DNA of 33,175 bases. Source: Candidatus Caribbeanibacter nitroreducens. Its GTDB lineage: Bacteria > Gemmatimonadota > Gemmatimonadetes > Palauibacterales > Palauibacteraceae. Position 1 is the first letter of the stretch; each line of letters begins with the position of its first letter. Below the pieces are notes generated by a model. The model was not told where the DNA came from, searched no databases, and saw nothing but the letters and a program-made list of their open reading frames with translations. Below, piece after piece: positions 23,401-32,557 of the stretch. The stretch is from NCBI GenBank assembly GCA_947581645.1, contig CANPVF010000143.1, positions 1-33,175 on the forward strand, given 5' to 3'. The translations under genes were made by a program, and so were the position numbers.

Positions 23401-25182
23401 ATGATCGGCGGAGCGGAGCGCCTCGGATCCCTGTTCGTCGCGTCCGCTCTCGCCGCGCTCTGGCTGGCGGGATGCGGCGGCCCGTCCGCGCCGACGGCGG
23501 ACCTGCTGATCACCGGCGGGGAGGTGTGGACCGGAGATCCGGACCGGCCGCGGGCCGGGGCGGTGGCGGTCGAGGGACACGAGATCCTGGCCGTGGGGAG
23601 CGCCTCCGAGCTCGAACCGCACGTGGGGCCGGAGACCCGCGTCATCGACGCCGACGGGGCCTTCGTGGCTCCCGGCTTCATCGACAGCCACACCCACTTC
23701 GACCGGGCCGGGCGGCTGCTCCTCGGCATCAACCTCCTGGACGTGTCCACGGACTCGGCCCTGGTGCAGCGGGTCCGGGCGGCCCGCGAGCGCCTGCCGG
23801 AGGGGGCGTGGATCACCGGCGGCGACTGGGGCGCGTACGCCGAGTGGGAGCAGGGATCGGCCGGGGAGGAGAGCTCCGGCGGCGGGGGAGGAGCAGACGC
23901 GGACGGCGGCGGTCGGGATTTCCGCCCCACCCGGGCTCTGCTCGACTCGATCACGCCGGAGACCCCGATCTTCCTGTCCCGCTGGGACGGAGGCGTCTAC
24001 CTGGCCAACGGGGCGGCCCTGGAGGCGGCTGAGGTGGACTGCACCACCGCGGGCGTGGAGTGCGAGGACGGCTCGCCCACGGGACGGCTGAGCCCGGCGG
24101 CCGCGGAGGCGGTTCGCGGGGTCGTTCCTGAGCGCTCCATGGAGCGGCGGATCGCCGAGGCCGACACCGCCTTCGACCGCCTCGTGGCCGCCGGCGTGAC
24201 GACCATCCACGATGTGACGCCGGCGAGTCAGATGCGCGTGTTCGAGGAGCTCCAGCGCCGCGACTCCCTGGAGGTTCGGGTCTACGCGCGTCCGATCCTC
24301 GACGACTGGGACGAGCTCCGGGCCGCCGGCATCCAGCAGGGCTTCGGGGACCGGTGGCTGCGCCTGGGGACGCTGAAGGGCTTCGTGGACGGGATCATGG
24401 GGAACTCTTCCGCCCGCTTCTACGAGCCGTACGACCACACCGGAGAGCGCGGGAGCTGGCGGGAGATGGTCCGGCAGCCGCCGGGGATCCAGCGGCTCAT
24501 GACCGGGGCGGACTCCTCCGGCCTGTGGATGGGGATCCACGCCATCGGCGACCAGGCCATCGACACGCTCCTGACCATGTACTCCCGGGTGCTGGAGGAG
24601 AACGGCCCGAAGAGCGCCGACGGCGCGGCCGGGCTGGAGGAGCGGCGCAACCGGATCATCCACACCCAGGTGCTGCGCGGGCCGGAGGTGGCGGACCGTA
24701 TCGCGGAGCTGGGCCTGATCGCCGAGGTCCAGCCCATCCATGTCTCCGACGACATGCGGTGGATGGAGGAGCGGATCGGCGAGGAGCGCTCACGGTGGGC
24801 GTATGCCTTCGGCACGCTGGAGGAGGCCGGGGTGCGTCTCTCCTTCGGCAGCGACTGGCCCGGAACGAACGCCGCCTGGTACCCGACGAGCCCGGTGAAG
24901 GGCATCTACGCGGCGGTGACGCGGAAGACGCTCTCCGGTGAGCCCGAGGGCGGCTGGTTTCCGGAGGAGCGGGTGAGCGTGGAGACGGCGCTCCGGGCCT
25001 ATACCGTGAACAACGCCTGGGCCGAGGGCCGCGAGCACAGCAAGGGCTCCATCGAGCCCGGGAAGCTGGCCGACCTGGTGGTGCTGGACCGGAGCCCGCT
25101 CCAGGTGCCCGCCGACAGCCTGAAGGATCTCGAGGTGCTGTACACGATCGTCGACGGCCGGGTGGTCCACGAGGGGCCGTAG
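23401..25182 (+). CDS. YtcJ-like amidohydrolase family 3 lipoprotein
   Basis: Exported metal-dependent amidohydrolase (593 aa) of the YtcJ/N-acyl-D-amino-acid deacylase-like family 3. The signal ends in a lipobox-like LWLAGC. Metal-binding H97 and H99 lie in GFIDSHTHF. Further conserved elements are ITGGDWGAY, H380 in IHAIGDQAID, H421 in IIHTQ and D485 in FGSDWPGT, and the beta-domain closing segment KGSIEPGKLADLVVLDRSPL. A Gly/Ser/Glu-rich insertion lies near residues 155-175. ATG 23401 is preceded by GAGGGAGAG. The substrate is unknown, perhaps an N-acylated amino acid or amide scavenged outside the cell. It converges on the PadR operon. Confidence 0.9.
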   Translation: MIGGAERLGSLFVASALAALWLAGCGGPSAPTADLLITGGEVWTGDPDRPRAGAVAVEGHEILAVGSASELEPHVGPETRVIDADGAFVAPGFIDSHTHFDRAGRLLLGINLLDVSTDSALVQRVRAARERLPEGAWITGGDWGAYAEWEQGSAGEESSGGGGGADADGGGRDFRPTRALLDSITPETPIFLSRWDGGVYLANGAALEAAEVDCTTAGVECEDGSPTGRLSPAAAEAVRGVVPERSMERRIAEADTAFDRLVAAGVTTIHDVTPASQMRVFEELQRRDSLEVRVYARPILDDWDELRAAGIQQGFGDRWLRLGTLKGFVDGIMGNSSARFYEPYDHTGERGSWREMVRQPPGIQRLMTGADSSGLWMGIHAIGDQAIDTLLTMYSRVLEENGPKSADGAAGLEERRNRIIHTQVLRGPEVADRIAELGLIAEVQPIHVSDDMRWMEERIGEERSRWAYAFGTLEEAGVRLSFGSDWPGTNAAWYPTSPVKGIYAAVTRKTLSGEPEGGWFPEERVSVETALRAYTVNNAWAEGREHSKGSIEPGKLADLVVLDRSPLQVPADSLKDLEVLYTIVDGRVVHEGP

Positions 25183-25222: not shown

Positions 25223-25252
25223 CCGGATCGCGGACGAGCTATCCGCGTCCGG
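25223..25252 (-). terminator. Hairpin spanning the end of the mini-ExbB gene
   Basis: Stem of CCGGA plus CGCGGA paired with TCCGCG plus TCCGG, one unpaired T, loop of 7 bases. The stop codon of the minus-strand gene (25241-25239) lies in the loop. With the neighbouring hairpin it separates two converging transcripts. Confidence 0.45.
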
Positions 25253-25619
25253 CGAACCGTCGGAGGCCGGTCCGGAGACCGAACCAGGCCAGCAGGCTCA
25301 CGGCGAGGACCATCAGGCCGAAGACGGTGGTGATCAGGGCCACCCGGATCCCGGACCACGCCACGGCCGGGGAGACGCTTCCGGCCTGCTCGATGGACCG
25401 GGCCATCACCCCCACCCCTCCCAGCGTGCCGATGAGGCCGAGGAGGGCCGCGAAGCCGCCCCAGAAGAGCACGGCGTCGATCTCGGAGCGGACCGCCGCC
25501 TCGTCTCCGGGCGTGCCCAGCAGCCTGCGGCCGGCGTCCGCCGCCAGCCCGAGGCTCACCAGGCCGGCCCCCAGCACGAGCCACATGAAGAAGCCTCCCG
25601 ACGCGAACCAGTCGATCAT
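25239..25619 (-). CDS. Short MotA/TolQ/ExbB proton-channel-like protein
   Basis: A 126-residue protein with three hydrophobic segments, starting MIDWFASGGFFMWLVLGAGLVSLG and continuing WGGFAALLGLIGTLGGVGVMARSIEQAG and ALITTVFGLMVLAVSLLAWFGL. The last two match the paired pore helices of the MotA/TolQ/ExbB family, including the GLIGT...G and ALITTVFGL patterns. The usual long cytoplasmic loop is almost absent, so it is far shorter than the 200-plus residues of ExbB or TolQ. ATG 25619 overlaps the upstream stop as ATGA and has a perfect AGGAGGTGA site. No ExbD/TolR-like partner gene is present. It is the last gene of a PadR-HAAS operon, so it is probably PadR-regulated. Confidence 0.8.
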   Translation of the reverse strand: MIDWFASGGFFMWLVLGAGLVSLGLAADAGRRLLGTPGDEAAVRSEIDAVLFWGGFAALLGLIGTLGGVGVMARSIEQAGSVSPAVAWSGIRVALITTVFGLMVLAVSLLAWFGLRTGLRRFAGRG

Positions 25620-26413
25620 CGCGTCACCTCCTGTCGAGTTGACGTCTCTCGCGCGTCGGTCGTCTCGGGTCCGCCGGAGGGGAGCGTGTCGCCGAGCTCC
25701 GATCGCGCCCGGGCCACGGCGCGCCGCACGGCGCTCGCCCGGAGCCGAAGGACCAGCCAGGCCAGGGCCAGGAGAAGAGCGACGCTGATCCCCAGGGAGG
25801 CGAGGGCGGCCGCGGCGGTGAGGTCCGACCAGGGCACGCCGGTTGCCGCGTCCGCCGGTGCCGCGGTCAGGCGGAGCCCTGCGGCGATCAGGCCCGCCAG
25901 GGCGGCAGCGGCCGCCGCGGCCAGAACGTCCCGGAGACGGCGGACGACGTCCGGGGAGCTCCCGGAGCCGCGGACGAAGAGCCCGTAGCCCCGTGCGGCG
26001 ACCATTCCGAGCCCCGCGGCCCCGATCACGGTAACGGCCCACGCCCCCGGCAGCGTGGGCGCGAGGATCCCGGACGCGGCGACGCCCGCGATCCCGGCAC
26101 CCGCGGCAGCCAGGGAGAAGGTCGCCACGGCTCCGATCTCCACCCATCCCCGGGCCGTGCTCCCCAGGCGGCGCAGGTGGCGCTCGATCCACGGCGTGTG
26201 GATCGCCCGCAGTCTGTCGGTGGCCTCCGGCGAGGGCTCGAACCACCTCACCGCACGGCGGCGTGCCGCCTCCGGGTCCATTCCCCGCTCACGATAGGCC
26301 TCGCACAGGTCCTCCAGGTCGCCGGCCATCTCCGCGAGGATCCGGGACCGGTCCGGCTCGGGGGTCTCCAGGCGGCGGTCAACCCGCCGCAGGACTCGGT
26401 CGAATTCCTCCAT
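25616..26413 (-). CDS. HAAS-domain (permease prefix-like) membrane protein
   Basis: A 265-residue protein. The N-terminal 90 residues form a HAAS/permease-prefix domain (RILAEMAGDLEDLCEAYRERGMDPEAARRRAVRWFE), which is usually found in partners of PadR regulators. Several hydrophobic segments follow (about four to five helices between residues 90 and 225), with a short polar tail. There is no transporter core, so it resembles the prefix-plus-helix proteins of PadR operons more than an ABC permease. ATG 26413 lies within the 3' end of padR (35-base overlap). It overlaps the next gene by 4 bases, so three proteins are co-translated. Confidence 0.8.
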   Translation of the reverse strand: MEEFDRVLRRVDRRLETPEPDRSRILAEMAGDLEDLCEAYRERGMDPEAARRRAVRWFEPSPEATDRLRAIHTPWIERHLRRLGSTARGWVEIGAVATFSLAAAGAGIAGVAASGILAPTLPGAWAVTVIGAAGLGMVAARGYGLFVRGSGSSPDVVRRLRDVLAAAAAAALAGLIAAGLRLTAAPADAATGVPWSDLTAAAALASLGISVALLLALAWLVLRLRASAVRRAVARARSELGDTLPSGGPETTDARETSTRQEVTR

Positions 26414-26738
26414 CGTCTCCTCCCAGCAGTCGACTCAGCGTCCGGAATGCCTGTATCAGGCGGCTCCCCTGCGCCGAGAGCCGCTCCCGTCCCGCTTCCG
26501 TGAGCCCGTAGACCTTGCGCCGCCTGCCCTCCTCCTCCCACTGCCCCTCGATCAGACCGTCCTTCTCGAGGCGGTGGAGGATCGGGTACAGCGTGCCGTG
26601 CTGGAGCTCGAACGCGCCGTCGGTCTCCTCCTCCACGTCGAGGGCGATCTGGTAGCCGTGCCGGGGGCCGTCCTCCAGGGTGGCGAGGACCAGCAATTCG
26701 TTCACGTTCCTGCCCAGGGCCTGGGTGTCGACCGACAT
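26379..26738 (-). CDS. PadR-family transcriptional regulator
   Basis: A 119-residue winged-helix repressor of the PadR family. The hallmark is seen at NVNELLVLATLEDGPRHGYQIALDVEEETDGAFELQHGTLYPILHRLEKDGLIEGQWEEEGRRRKVYGLTEAG, and the C-terminal helix (LSAQGSRLIQAFRTLSRLL) serves as the dimer arm. Short form, without the long C-terminal domain of the phenolic-acid regulator. ATG 26738 has GGAAGGAT upstream. It probably represses its own operon through the AT-rich site just upstream. The inducer is unknown; many PadR-HAAS pairs respond to membrane-active compounds. Confidence 0.92.
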   Translation of the reverse strand: MSVDTQALGRNVNELLVLATLEDGPRHGYQIALDVEEETDGAFELQHGTLYPILHRLEKDGLIEGQWEEEGRRRKVYGLTEAGRERLSAQGSRLIQAFRTLSRLLGGDDGGIRPSPAAG

Positions 26739-26782
26739 GCCATCCTTCCGCTGCGGGTTCGTCGCCTCTATGTGGACGTTCA

Positions 26783-26809
26783 ATGTATAGATACCCAAGA
26801 TAAAGGCAA
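26783..26809 (-). promoter_or_regulatory. AT-rich promoter/operator upstream of the PadR operon
   Basis: An AT-rich pocket in very G+C-rich surroundings. On the minus strand it holds TATACA as a possible -10 and TTGCCT 14 bases upstream, a short spacer that would suit a repressed promoter. GTAT-AG-ATAC (26785-26794) has inverted 4-base arms, and AGATA is repeated 9 bases apart (26789-26793 and 26798-26802, plus strand). It is the likely PadR binding site. Confidence 0.55.
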
Positions 26810-26953
26810 GGTCGCGCCGTGTCCGCGGTGCCGCCGTCCGGCCGGGATTGCGGGCCGAGCCTCGCCCCGGGAGCATTGGTGCCGACCTGCGGCCTCCGTC
26901 CGGGGCGCCGCCGACGGAGAAGGGCTCATCACAGCGTGGGGAGACGGGACCAG

Positions 26954-27835
26954 ATGACGACGGTGTACATGAACGGGGAGTACCTGCCGAAGCGGGAGGC
27001 CGCGGTCTCGCCGGACGACCGGGGCTTCCTGCTGGCGGACGGTGTCTACGAGGTGACGCCGGCCTACGACGGCGAGTTCTTCGGCCTGGACGGGCACCTC
27101 GAGCGACTGGAGCGCGGCCTGGAGGAGCTCCGCATCGGGCTGGACGTGGAGCCCCTGGCCGAGGTTCACCGCCGGCTGCTCGAGGAGAACGGGCTGGCTG
27201 AGGTGCCCACGGCCAAGGTCTATCTCCAGGTCACCCGGGGAGCGGCGCGGCGGCAGCACGCGTTCCCGGAGGCCGAGCCGGAGCCCACGGTGTACGCGTT
27301 CGCCACCGAGTGGACGGCGCCGGACGCCGCGGAATGGGAGGAGGGCTGTTCGGCGGTGACGGTGCCGGACCGGCGATGGAGCCGGGTGGACATCAAGAGC
27401 ATCGCGCTGCTCCCCAACGTCCTGGCGCAGCAGGCGGCGCACGACGCCGGCGCCGAGGAGTCGATCTTCGTCCACGAGGGAGTGGCCATCGAGGGGGCGC
27501 ACGCCAACTTCTGGGCGGTGCTGGACGGCACCGTCGTCACGCATCCGGCGACGAACCGGATCCTCCCGGGCATCACGCGAGCCACGGTGCTGGAGCTGGC
27601 CCGGGACCGTGGGCACCCGGTTCGGGAGCGTCCGGTCCAGGTGGAGGAGCTCCCCGGGGCCGACGAGGTGTTCCTCACGGGCACGACCACCGAGGTGCTG
27701 CCCATCACCGAGCTGGACGGCGATCCCGTGTCCGACGGCTCACCCGGGCCGGTGAGCCGGGATCTCTTCGTCGCCTATCGCGAGAAGGTGGGAGGTCCGG
27801 TCCCGGCGTTTCCGGCGCCGGCCGGCGGGGCGTAG
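26954..27835 (+). CDS. D-amino-acid transaminase-like class IV aminotransferase
   Basis: PLP enzyme of fold type IV, 293 aa, cytoplasmic. The catalytic lysine is K148 in DIKSIALLPNVLA and the cofactor-holding glutamate is E180 in EGAHANFW, matching K145 and E177 of Bacillus D-amino-acid transaminase. The substrate-carboxylate residues of that enzyme (Y31, R98, H100) are matched by Y32 in DGVYEV and R100/H102 in TRGAARRQHAFP, which favours D-amino acids over branched-chain L-amino acids. ATG 26954 follows GGGGAGACGGG; an open frame extends upstream without homology. It converges on a diaminopentanoate/amine dehydrogenase-like gene across a shared hairpin. D-alanine/D-glutamate metabolism is the likely role. 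Confidence 0.88.
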   Translation: MTTVYMNGEYLPKREAAVSPDDRGFLLADGVYEVTPAYDGEFFGLDGHLERLERGLEELRIGLDVEPLAEVHRRLLEENGLAEVPTAKVYLQVTRGAARRQHAFPEAEPEPTVYAFATEWTAPDAAEWEEGCSAVTVPDRRWSRVDIKSIALLPNVLAQQAAHDAGAEESIFVHEGVAIEGAHANFWAVLDGTVVTHPATNRILPGITRATVLELARDRGHPVRERPVQVEELPGADEVFLTGTTTEVLPITELDGDPVSDGSPGPVSRDLFVAYREKVGGPVPAFPAPAGGA

Positions 27836-29557: not shown

Positions 29558-31030
29558 TCAGCCGGCCGATCGAACTCCGCTCTTCCGCCACAGGTCCGGG
29601 TGGAACAGCAGTAGGACGGTGAACAGCTCCAGGCGCCCCACTACCATCAGGAAGGTCAGCAGGCCCTGGGCCGTGGGCCCCATCCATCCGTAGTTGTCCA
29701 CGGCGCCCACATCGCCCAGCCCCGGCCCGATGTTCCCCAGCGTGGCGGCCGCCGCGCCCACCGCCGTCGTCAGGTCCATGCCCAGGAAGGACAGCAGCAT
29801 CGTCCCGACGGCGAAGACCATCAGGTAGAGGACCAGGAAGGCCACGATCCGCAGCAGGACGTCCTCCTGCAGCACCCGTCGCCCCACGCGGGTCAGGATC
29901 ACCGCCCGGGGACGGAGGCTCTTCTTCATCTCGGTGAACATGTGCTTCACGAGCACCTGCACCCGGACGACCTTCATCCCGCCGCCCGTGGACCCGGCCA
30001 TCCCGCCCACGAACATCAGGAGCAGCAGGACGACCTGGGCCCCGATGGCCCACTGCTCGTAGTCGGCCGTCACGTAGCCCGTCGTGGTGACGATGGCGAC
30101 CGTCTGGAAGACGGAGTGGCGGAGCGAGGTCTCGAAGCCCTGGCCCGCGAAGTGCCCGCCGGCCAGGACGGCCGCCAGGATCAGCCCTCCGGCCCCCAGG
30201 AGGAGCTTGCCGAAGAACCGCCACTCCGCGTCCTCCCAGTAGACGCGCGGCCCGCCGTGCAGCGCGCGGTAGTGGAGGGCGAAGTTCACCCCGGCCAGGA
30301 ACATGAAGAGGATGGTCACCCACTGCAGGTAGGCGGAGTCGAAGGCCGCGATGGACTCGGCCTCCGGCGAGAACCCGCCGGTGGAGAGGGTGGTGAAGGC
30401 GTGGGTGACGGCGTCGAAGGCCGAGGCGCCGCCGAGCATCCAGAGAACGGCCTGTGCCGCCGTCAGCCCCGCGTAGACGTACCAGAGGAGCTTCGCCGTC
30501 TGGGTTATCCGCGGCTGGAGGCGAGAGGGGGTAGGGCCCGGCACCTCCGCCTGGAAGAGCTGCATGCCGCCCACGCCCAGGAAGGGGAGCACCGCCAGGC
30601 CGAGGACGATGATCCCCATGCCTCCCATCCACTGGGTGAAGTTCCGCCAGAAGAGGATGCCGTGGGGGAGGGCCTCGATGTCGGCGAAGACCGTCGCGCC
30701 GGTGGTCGTGAAGCCGGAGATGGACTCGAAGAGGGCCGGGACCGGGGACGAGAGGACCCCGGTGAACAGGAAGGGCAGGGCGCCCACGGCCCCCACCGCG
30801 AGCCAGGCCAGGGCGACGACCGCGTAGCCCTCCCGCACCGTCAGATCCCGCTCCACATCCGTGGTCGCCACGGCGGCGGCGCCGACGGCCAGGCTGATCC
30901 CTGCGGTGAGGGCGAAGGCCCCGGCGTCCCCGTCGCCGTAGATCAGGGCCACCAGGGCCGTGACGACCAGGGCTCCTGTCAGGGCCAGGAGGATGAGGCC
31001 CACCACGTGGACCAGGTGGCGGATCCTCAC
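29558..31030 (-). CDS. trkH: Trk/Ktr potassium uptake channel subunit
   Basis: Inner-membrane K+ translocating subunit of the Trk/Ktr family, 490 aa with about ten membrane helices. The four pore loops are recognisable: SGFTTTGATV, FTTLSTGGFS, VTTTGYVTAD and AATLGNIGPGLG, each with the filter glycine. The start is GTG 31030 with GGGAGGT upstream. It lies 46 bases downstream of the TrkA-like gating subunit gene, so both are made from one transcript and form the uptake complex. Pore glycines all look intact. I use trkH for the family; KtrB-like ion specificity cannot be excluded. Confidence 0.92.
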   Translation of the reverse strand: MRIRHLVHVVGLILLALTGALVVTALVALIYGDGDAGAFALTAGISLAVGAAAVATTDVERDLTVREGYAVVALAWLAVGAVGALPFLFTGVLSSPVPALFESISGFTTTGATVFADIEALPHGILFWRNFTQWMGGMGIIVLGLAVLPFLGVGGMQLFQAEVPGPTPSRLQPRITQTAKLLWYVYAGLTAAQAVLWMLGGASAFDAVTHAFTTLSTGGFSPEAESIAAFDSAYLQWVTILFMFLAGVNFALHYRALHGGPRVYWEDAEWRFFGKLLLGAGGLILAAVLAGGHFAGQGFETSLRHSVFQTVAIVTTTGYVTADYEQWAIGAQVVLLLLMFVGGMAGSTGGGMKVVRVQVLVKHMFTEMKKSLRPRAVILTRVGRRVLQEDVLLRIVAFLVLYLMVFAVGTMLLSFLGMDLTTAVGAAAATLGNIGPGLGDVGAVDNYGWMGPTAQGLLTFLMVVGRLELFTVLLLFHPDLWRKSGVRSAG

Positions 31031-31076
31031 GTCCGGACCTCCCGCCGGAACCGGCTCCCCGGGGCTGCCGAGCCGC

Positions 31077-32420
31077 TCACACGAAGAACCGCTGGAACTC
31101 CGAGATGCGATCGGGGGCGGCGAAGAGGATCACCCGGTCACCGGGGTGCACCCGGTCCTGCCCCCGTGGGGTGATGACCTCGTTCCCCCGGACGATGGCG
31201 CCCACCAGGCCCCGCTCGGGCAGGTCCGCCTCGACCAGGGGCTTGCCGGCGATGGGCGCGGACTCGGAGACCTCCACCTCCATGGCCTCCGCGTCGGCCC
31301 CCTTGAGGGTGGCCACCGTGTGCACCTCGCCGCGACGGACGTAGCGGAGAATGGCGTTCACCGTGGACATCCGGGGGGAGACGGCGGCGTCCACACCGAC
31401 CCGATCCACCAGGGGCAGGTAATCGACGCGGTGCATGAGGCTGATCACCTTCCGGGCGCCGACGGTCTTGGCCAGCAGGCCCGCCAGGAGGTTCGTCTCG
31501 TCCTGGCCGGTGAGAGAGACGAAGCCGTCGATCCCGGCCACGCCCTCCATCTCCAGCAGTTCCTGGTCGGTGGCGTCGCCGTGGAGGACCAGGGCGCCGG
31601 GCAACTCCTCGGCCAGCTCCTGGCACCGGTGGCGGTCCACGTCCAGGATCGTGCAGTCCACGTCGTGCTCGTTCAGGTGTCGGGCCAGGTAGACGGCCTC
31701 GCGGTTGCCGCCGGCGATCATCACGCGCTCCAGATTGAAGCGCTCGTAGCCCGCCAGGGGCGGGACGGCCGGCAGGTCCTCGGCGCGCGAGAGCACGTAG
31801 ATGTGGTCCCCGGCCTCGATGCGGCTCGACCCCTTCGGGATCTCCGTCTCGCCGTCCCGGACGATGGCCACCGTGACCCAGCTCCGGTCCTCCAGCTTCC
31901 GGTCCAGCTCCACCAGGTTCAGGCCCGCCACCGGGGCGCCCTCCCGGACGCGCAGGCCGACCAGCTGGAGGCGTCCCTCGGCGAAGCGGACCAGGTCGGT
32001 GGCGGCCTCGCTGTTCAGCAGCTGGAAGATCTCCCAGGCGCACTCGCGCTCCGGGCTGATCAGGAGGTCGATGCCCAGCTGCTCCTGGGAGAGCACCCCG
32101 TTCTCGCCGTAGTAGTCGGTGCTGCTGAGCCGGGCCACACGGAACCCGGCGCCGAGCTGTGAGGCCACCAGGCAGGCCACCAGGTTGACCTCGTCCTGGC
32201 TGGTGACGGCCAGCAGCAGGTCCGCCTCGGTGACGCCGGCCTCCTGCAGGACGGGCAACGAGGCGCCGTTCCCGGTCACCGGGAGGACGTCGAGGTTGTC
32301 GCTCACCACCCGGGTGCGCTCGGGGTCCTTGTCGATGACCACCACGTCCTCGCCCTCCTCCGAGAGGCGTTCGGCGAGGTGGTAGCCCACGGCTCCGGCT
32401 CCGACGATCAGGATACGCAT
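31077..32420 (-). CDS. trkA: Trk system potassium uptake regulatory subunit
   Basis: Cytoplasmic gating subunit that binds NAD(H) and nucleotides, 447 aa. Two RCK repeats are visible: the first starts RILIVGAGAVGYHLAERL at residue 2, and the second starts VMIAGGNREAVYLARHL near 230. Each is followed by a TrkA-C domain (near VGLRVREGAPVAG and VEVSESAPIAGKPL). Two repeats in one chain are the TrkA form, as opposed to single-repeat KtrA. ATG 32420 is preceded by no clear ribosome site, only an AT-rich TACCCTTTA, so a leaderless mRNA is possible. An upstream in-frame extension to 32501 lacks homology. It is divergent from the M14 gene. Confidence 0.92.
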   Translation of the reverse strand: MRILIVGAGAVGYHLAERLSEEGEDVVVIDKDPERTRVVSDNLDVLPVTGNGASLPVLQEAGVTEADLLLAVTSQDEVNLVACLVASQLGAGFRVARLSSTDYYGENGVLSQEQLGIDLLISPERECAWEIFQLLNSEAATDLVRFAEGRLQLVGLRVREGAPVAGLNLVELDRKLEDRSWVTVAIVRDGETEIPKGSSRIEAGDHIYVLSRAEDLPAVPPLAGYERFNLERVMIAGGNREAVYLARHLNEHDVDCTILDVDRHRCQELAEELPGALVLHGDATDQELLEMEGVAGIDGFVSLTGQDETNLLAGLLAKTVGARKVISLMHRVDYLPLVDRVGVDAAVSPRMSTVNAILRYVRRGEVHTVATLKGADAEAMEVEVSESAPIAGKPLVEADLPERGLVGAIVRGNEVITPRGQDRVHPGDRVILFAAPDRISEFQRFFV

Positions 32421-32557
32421 GGCCGTAAAGGGTATGGAGGTTCCCCCGCGGAGAGAACCCTCCCGGTCGCCGGCGGGCTGGCCCGGCTCGAGGGGCACCA
32501 TACATTCATGGACTCACGTTCCGGCACACGGACCCCGACGATGACGGAGGTTCCACG

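Follow-up and report, generated by a model that had tools for sequence, protein, structure and literature searches.

A conserved operon beside PadR encodes two unequal ExbB-like cores

The operon described here is a conserved module with two ExbB-like cores beside a gene for a PadR regulator, and its short ExbB relative is neither an ordinary orphan nor partnerless. It lies in a stretch of 33,175 nucleotides, hereafter the window, which is the entire contig C143 of the 2.96 Mb genome of Candidatus Caribbeanibacter nitroreducens. Three minus-strand genes of the window are confirmed as real and tightly coupled open reading frames (ORFs). The gene padR (26379..26738) encodes a standalone winged-helix regulator of 119 amino acids (P0003; PF03551, E 2.8e-27). 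It is followed by the gene for the long subunit, HAAS-ExbB (P0002; 25616..26413), a protein of 265 amino acids with a permease-prefix/HAAS-like cytoplasmic domain, an extra transmembrane (TM) helix and a degenerate ExbB core, and by the gene for the short subunit, mini-ExbB (P0001; 25239..25619), of 126 amino acids. A preliminary description of this DNA had proposed three coupled genes, and the ORFs, their strand and their overlaps (4 bp between the mini and HAAS-like genes, 35 bp between the HAAS-like gene and padR) bear this out. Two PadR matches above cut-off are found in the organism's own genome, the one in the window being the stronger. The flanking ORFs (23401-25182 and 26954-27835) lie on the opposite strand and by eye resemble an amidohydrolase and a D-amino-acid aminotransferase, respectively; an Rfam scan of the window gave no matches. 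By eye, a further pair of minus-strand ORFs in the window (29558-32501) resembles TrkH and TrkA of potassium uptake.

By its sequence, the short subunit is shown to be a bare ExbB core in which the putative pore hydroxyls are kept. It matches PF01618 (MotA_ExbB) with 39 bits against a cut-off of 22.9, as expected of the 126-residue MotA/TolQ/ExbB relative first described, and 32 of 40 aligned minis match the same family at E 0.01. A monomer model, built with the help of five ExbB rows (pLDDT 84.9), has helices at residues 10-35, 40-79 and 84-125, with a link of 4 residues between TM1 and TM2, and all 126 residues align to TolQ residues 6-206. The model and this alignment agree with the earlier observation that most of the cytoplasmic loop has been lost: the TM1-TM2 cytoplasmic domain is absent from the mini, and a long insertion is present there in the five full-length ExbBs of alignment A3.

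Hydroxyl residues occupy pore positions in two helices of the mini. Thr65 in TM2 (25425..25427, minus strand) is Thr or Ser in 33/40 aligned members and Thr98 in TM3 (25326..25328, minus strand) in 31/40; we take these residues to be the equivalents of E. coli ExbB T148 and T181. The pore-helix polar residues, the conservation of which the preliminary description had set out as a check, are thus largely conserved, and the exceptions are Gln, Met, Gly, Leu, Ala, Val or Pro in some members. Residues G61, G68, G101, W112 and L115 are invariant across the 40 minis. At the place that presumably corresponds to E. coli ExbB E176, 38 of the 40 have V, I or L, and Val is also found there in full-length ExbBs of the own genome. 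A predicted structure with no ExbB-like pore had been named beforehand as an outcome that would speak against the assignment; the 50 matches listed by Foldseek for the monomer model are all, by title, TolQ, ExbB, MotA or PomA chains, none of them at E 0.001 or better (best 0.021). Superposition of the model on TolQ gives Z 12.3 and an rmsd of 2.7 over 126 residues (VIA), a score that falls within the tool's helical-bundle warning range, with unrelated helical proteins at Z 10-11.6 in the same list.

The long subunit, as judged from the family comparison on which the homology rests, starts with a helical domain, continues with one additional helix and ends in a degenerate ExbB core. Residues 13-58 of P0002 (26240..26377, minus strand) match the NCBIfam permease prefix domain 1 (NF038403) at E 3.6e-9, with 36.3 bits against a cut-off of 30, and the same match is found in 23 of the 34 long-subunit members. 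A Pfam scan of P0002 returned no match at E 1, HAAS (PF22564) included, while one of the 34 relatives matches Pfam HAAS. The GxP motif of the third HAAS helix, as described by Ravi et al. (PMC11237479), is found in the third-helix region of none of the 34 long subunits, and anywhere in the first 80 residues in 9/34. The HAAS label given earlier is therefore retained in part, since the permease prefix domain 1 match speaks for it, whereas the missing Pfam HAAS match and the missing third-helix GxP (0/34) speak against it. After the HAAS-like domain come four hydrophobic helices, that is, a fused multi-TM region, as placed by the alignment and a low-confidence model. This single-sequence model (pLDDT 58.9, too poor for a fold search) has helices at residues 2-16, 22-42, 47-58, 62-83, 85-113, 122-150, 154-184 and 195-243.

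The degenerate three-helix ExbB-like core is assigned to residues 123-225 of P0002 (25739..26047, minus strand) by hmmsearch with the mini-family profile and by hhalign. The profile matches the C-terminal half of many HAAS-like proteins, the window's own P0002 giving a weak match with a domain score of 12.2 bits over residues 123-225. When 40 minis (A1; from 59, thinned at 80 percent identity) are compared with 34 HAAS-like proteins (A2), hhalign returns a probability of 97.3, E 2.8e-11 and a score of 74.2, with 123 of the 138 mini columns aligned. The probability falls to 5.3 percent (score 23.4) with A2 reversed, to 4.2 percent with A1 reversed and to 2.9 percent with A2 columns 1-150 alone; the best of 40 local shuffles reaches 81.7 with a score of 40.4, against the real 74.2. 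The mini is therefore not partnerless, as had been supposed, because the C-terminal half of the HAAS-like protein encoded upstream of it is, on this comparison, a second, degenerate ExbB core. Against solved structures, the four best matches of A2 are to TolQ, at only E 0.018-0.043, and Pfam MotA_ExbB matches none of the 34 members. Thr or Ser is present at the corresponding pore places of the long subunit in 4/34 and 1/34, and one place beyond the pore position S or T is found in 12/34. An invariant Trp occupies the same TM3 place in both families (40/40 minis, 34/34 long subunits). A tree built on 65 columns keeps the long subunits together and likewise the minis, each with UFBoot 92, and places a single full-length ExbB (L115) among the minis; with only three groups, the tree does not tell which two are sisters. 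A recent duplication of the two subunits was considered and is unsupported, the subunits falling into separate groups.

Conservation of the module was followed within the organism's own class, with homologues identified in stop-to-stop frames by profiles built up from the window proteins. Of 295 class genomes searched with a single sequence, 194 gave a match, and many of the weaker matches are ordinary longer ExbBs, all 20 that were fetched lying in frames of 223-282 residues. Sixty loci (L040-L099) were fetched for the listed matches with E values up to 9.6e-9, most of them including some 4 kb of flanking sequence either way where the contig was long enough; weaker mini-like matches, such as those in G188, G006, G138 and G150, fall outside this set. 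The order PadR, HAAS-ExbB, mini is found at 51 of the 60 loci, in a recount that takes PadR on the same strand and within 400 nt. Six of the nine misses are cut by, or lie too near, a contig end (L041, L049, L051, L056, L059 and L085), and in L041, L049 and L051 the HAAS-ExbB gene is present with PadR cut off. L068 and L088, both from genome G278, are two broken copies of the mini (L068:3791-4246 and L088:4010-4454), and neither PadR nor long subunit was found in the fetched stretches around them. The sole remaining exception is L074, with PadR and mini and no HAAS-like gene; here (L074:2983-4771) the mini comes straight after PadR and continues in frame into a lipoprotein-like stretch. Tandem pairs of minis are present in L046 and L084.

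The spacing of the two subunit genes is close, the mini start lying at most 50 nt from the HAAS-ExbB stop in 53 of 54 loci and overlapping it in 24, with start codons chosen by rule; in the exception, L094, the HAAS-like frame is broken. Many of the 60 loci come from the same few genera and do not represent 60 independent events. The association of PadR, HAAS-ExbB and mini exceeds chance, though a few genera supply many of the loci. The long subunit is found in 59 of 395 genomes of the phylum, and all 59 belong to the own class. Outside the phylum, a single-sequence scan that reaches close relatives only gave five loci, all of them full-length ExbBs adjoining ExbD. A tblastn search with P0001 and P0002 for plasmid copies found none, and searches of the open-licence literature on HAAS/PadR, PadR with ExbB or proton channels, the permease prefix domain and ExbB without ExbD turned up no account of the module.

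The axle subunit ExbD was sought by phmmer, using the three ExbDs of the own genome as queries. No match was found in the window or at any of the 60 loci, the fetched stretches of which cover at least 365 bases past the mini and 1000 or more in 59/60; the same search was positive at 5/5 full-length ExbB loci (L005-L009). The own genome has four MotA_ExbB matches, and its three ExbD matches lie on C142 and C177. The view that the mini has no ExbD/TolR neighbour is upheld by these data, the own-genome ExbD matches being on other contigs, and homologues lying regularly beside ExbD, which had been proposed as evidence to the contrary, were not encountered (0/60 fetched loci with an ExbD match). 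ExbD as a missing partner nearby is thus rejected, there being no match in the 60 loci. The absence of ExbD is not unique to the mini, because among 20 further full-length ExbBs sampled from the class nine also gave no match (one of them, L110, contig-cut) and 11 adjoin ExbD; the C29 ExbB of the own genome (L002) likewise has no ExbD match nearby. For the same reason, a missing ExbD was rejected as proof of novelty. At seven of those nine loci without an ExbD match (L111, L112, L117, L119, L121, L122 and L125), the full-length exbB is followed by a long ORF, alike among these loci and transglycosylase-like by eye.

Clustering of the flanking genes yields a single recurrent neighbour, a beta-propeller gene. 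When called genes are searched more strictly, it is adjacent or fused at 30 of 60 loci, a set that here comprises 59 of L040-L099 (L088 dropped) and the window. The gene lies directly after the module on the same strand in 16 cases, directly before it on the same strand in 10 and before it on the other strand in 2, and L065 has one on each side. None occupies the second or third place in the stricter search, while looser clustering put two at the third upstream place. At L095, L097 and L098 the mini is fused in frame to the propeller protein. These fusions (L095:1880-4381, L097:3996-6497 and L098:1914-4415) are beta-propeller/FGE-sulfatase proteins of 833 amino acids from three genomes of one genus, the one from L095 having been scanned, and a lipobox-like stretch is seen by eye at the junction of mini and propeller. 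All five propeller proteins scanned carry a 6-bladed beta-propeller or NHL match, some below cut-off, and three of the five an FGE-sulfatase domain; a sixth scanned protein (L074) matches MotA_ExbB only, below cut-off. At E 1e-50, one propeller-FGE protein finds a match in 37 of the 295 class genomes, with 31 of these among the 59 long-subunit genomes; the corresponding Fisher value of 7.7e-20 is inflated by three dominant genera and assumes shared class genomes. Seven genomes of one genus have a HAAS-ExbB gene and no propeller-FGE match at E 1e-50. The own genome contains an intact, near full-length propeller-FGE relative, which is unlinked, on C183.

A candidate PadR operator, TCTATACATTGA in the minus-strand reading, is located at 26780..26791, 41 bp before the padR start codon. 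It falls within 26739-26953, an interval shared with the divergent, aminotransferase-like ORF at 26954-27835, and PadR might affect both. Long palindromes were scattered as operator candidates, and k-mers were used instead. The resulting motif, CGATATAWAGA, is present at one mismatch or fewer upstream of padR in 35 of 50 regions; among 960 other windows the rate is 0.7 percent, and the shuffles gave none. These counts describe rather than test the motif, which was derived from the same regions. The upstream region of the window's own padR carries it at 2 mismatches. In the genus that has the propeller gene before padR (L053-L055, L057, L063-L065), the padR upstream regions carry the motif only at 3-4 mismatches; upstream of the propeller gene it is found at one mismatch or fewer in 1/10 loci, and at 2 in 6 more.

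Upstream of the propeller-FGE gene on C183 of the own genome lies a perfect palindrome, ACTCTATATATAGAGT. Its core, TCTATATATAGA, occurs nowhere else in this genome at one mismatch or fewer, and at two or fewer it occurs at three places in 2.96 Mb, against 0 for a control pattern, the 12-base core having been chosen after the own-genome sites had been seen. The three places are before the C183 propeller-FGE gene, at 26780-26791 of the window before padR, and at C168:17875-17886 (L136:3376-3387), where the letters are GCTATATATAGG. A few hundred bases after this last place comes an ORF, lipoprotein-like by eye, which may be a further member of the regulon. Among 13 propeller-FGE genes outside the operon, CGATATAWAGA is found at one mismatch or fewer in four, against a background of 1.3 percent of 822 windows; the four include L149, in which the region is shared with padR, and the own-genome gene. 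The nine without the motif at 1 mismatch consist of three outside the 59 long-subunit genomes (G064, cut to 157 bases, G123 and G164) and six from long-subunit genomes (G006, G022, G059 with two mismatches, G071, G144 and G180). In G006, a HAAS-ExbB gene is present, yet the region upstream of the propeller-FGE gene lacks the motif. Together, the candidate operator and the neighbour evidence point to the propeller-FGE protein as a putative member of the regulon.

The module can be set beside three known systems. Ravi et al. 2024 (PMC11237479) suggest HAAS-PadR pairs as an alternative to membrane-sensor two-component systems, and list fused multi-TM domains for them. Like these HAAS-PadR-like wHTH systems, for which membrane-linked signalling is proposed there, the module has a standalone PadR adjoining a gene for a multi-TM protein with a helical domain at its N-terminus. 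Unlike them, its membrane part is an ExbB core accompanied by a second, free ExbB core, and its helical domain, of the permease-prefix-1 type, has a third helix without GxP. The main text of PMC11237479 nowhere mentions ExbB, MotA or TolQ. The three-helix core, the TM2/TM3 glycines and the pore hydroxyls are shared with MotA/TolQ/ExbB (PF01618), treated as generic ion transporters in PMC12505986, which also notes generic A subunits with extra domains, and the mini monomer model superposes on both TolQ and ExbB. In contrast to that family, the module lacks the cytoplasmic domain, shows no ExbD match in its vicinity, pairs two unequal cores and adjoins a padR gene. A further likeness is to the FGE-fold lipoproteins PorK/GldK of the T9SS, given the FGE-sulfatase domain of the associated propeller protein and the analogous placing of an FGE protein next to a relative of ion-motor parts. 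Of four propeller proteins tested, three give weak matches to the GldK family (NCBIfam TIGR03525), with E values of 4e-11 to 3e-15 and scores of 42.8 to 56.7 bits where the cut-off is 350. This likeness is confined to the FGE domain, where PvdO scores better, and unlike PorK/GldK the protein has a beta-propeller.

As to function, the chances appear evenly balanced that the operon is a membrane sensor-transducer joined to a PadR repressor, with an output that includes the propeller-FGE protein; the sensing, the complex of the two subunits and the binding of PadR are parts that we infer. In such a system, a change in the state of the membrane (in ion gradient, or by lipid disorder or damage) would alter the assembly, the HAAS-like domain would relay this change to PadR, and the operator would be freed. 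PadR would then derepress its own operon and at least one envelope protein of the beta-propeller/FGE-sulfatase type. A more specific version, tentative and on the doubtful side, is that the ExbB/MotA fold acts here without an axle as a two-subunit receptor for transcription, in which a pore-competent small subunit and a pore-dead relay subunit would report the electrochemical state to PadR.

Other explanations give the ExbB cores a lesser or a different part. It is unlikely that the core merely anchors the HAAS-like domain in the membrane, or serves as its scaffold, with any ion-linked role lost. The few pore hydroxyls of the HAAS-ExbB subunit (4/34 and 1/34), the minis with Gln, Met, Gly, Leu, Ala, Val or Pro at pore positions and the existence of degraded copies (L068, L088) are all consistent with an anchor, but a separate mini gene in which G61, G68, G101, W112 and L115 are invariant among 40 members goes beyond a bare anchor's need. 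The kept hydroxyls of the mini (33/40 and 31/40) and the lack of an ExbD match nearby would also suit an ion-leak effector, in which the mini is a proton-conducting homo-oligomer, induced through PadR, that dissipates gradient or pressure, with HAAS-ExbB serving only as its gate. We regard this as distinctly unlikely. Characterised members of the MotA/TolQ/ExbB family conduct together with an axle subunit, on which the key Asp is located. In MotB, this residue of the axle is D22 (PMC9389320); the axle sought beside the mini was ExbD. The V, I or L of 38/40 minis at the E176 place also argues against a leak, although this is a weak point, the full-length ExbBs of the own genome likewise having Val.

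Very unlikely, in our judgement, is an energizer, in which the pair would join an ExbD from another locus in a 5:2-like motor that powers the propeller-FGE protein, the FGE domain of which resembles the T9SS ring lipoprotein GldK. The own genome does encode three ExbDs elsewhere, 3/4 tested propeller proteins give the weak GldK match, and 9/20 full-length ExbBs of the class (one contig-cut) are likewise without an ExbD match nearby. Set against these are the loss of the cytoplasmic domain of full-length members, the 0/60 loci with an ExbD match and a GldK similarity that lies in the FGE domain, where PvdO is the better match.

To our knowledge, few systems that control transcription sense the proton gradient directly. 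The sensor-transducer reading would make this module a small candidate for such a sensor and, if true, the 5:2 motor fold would be reusable for signalling without an axle. It also yields a definite prediction of the regulon, with three sites in a single genome, which would tie a propeller-FGE envelope protein to the module.
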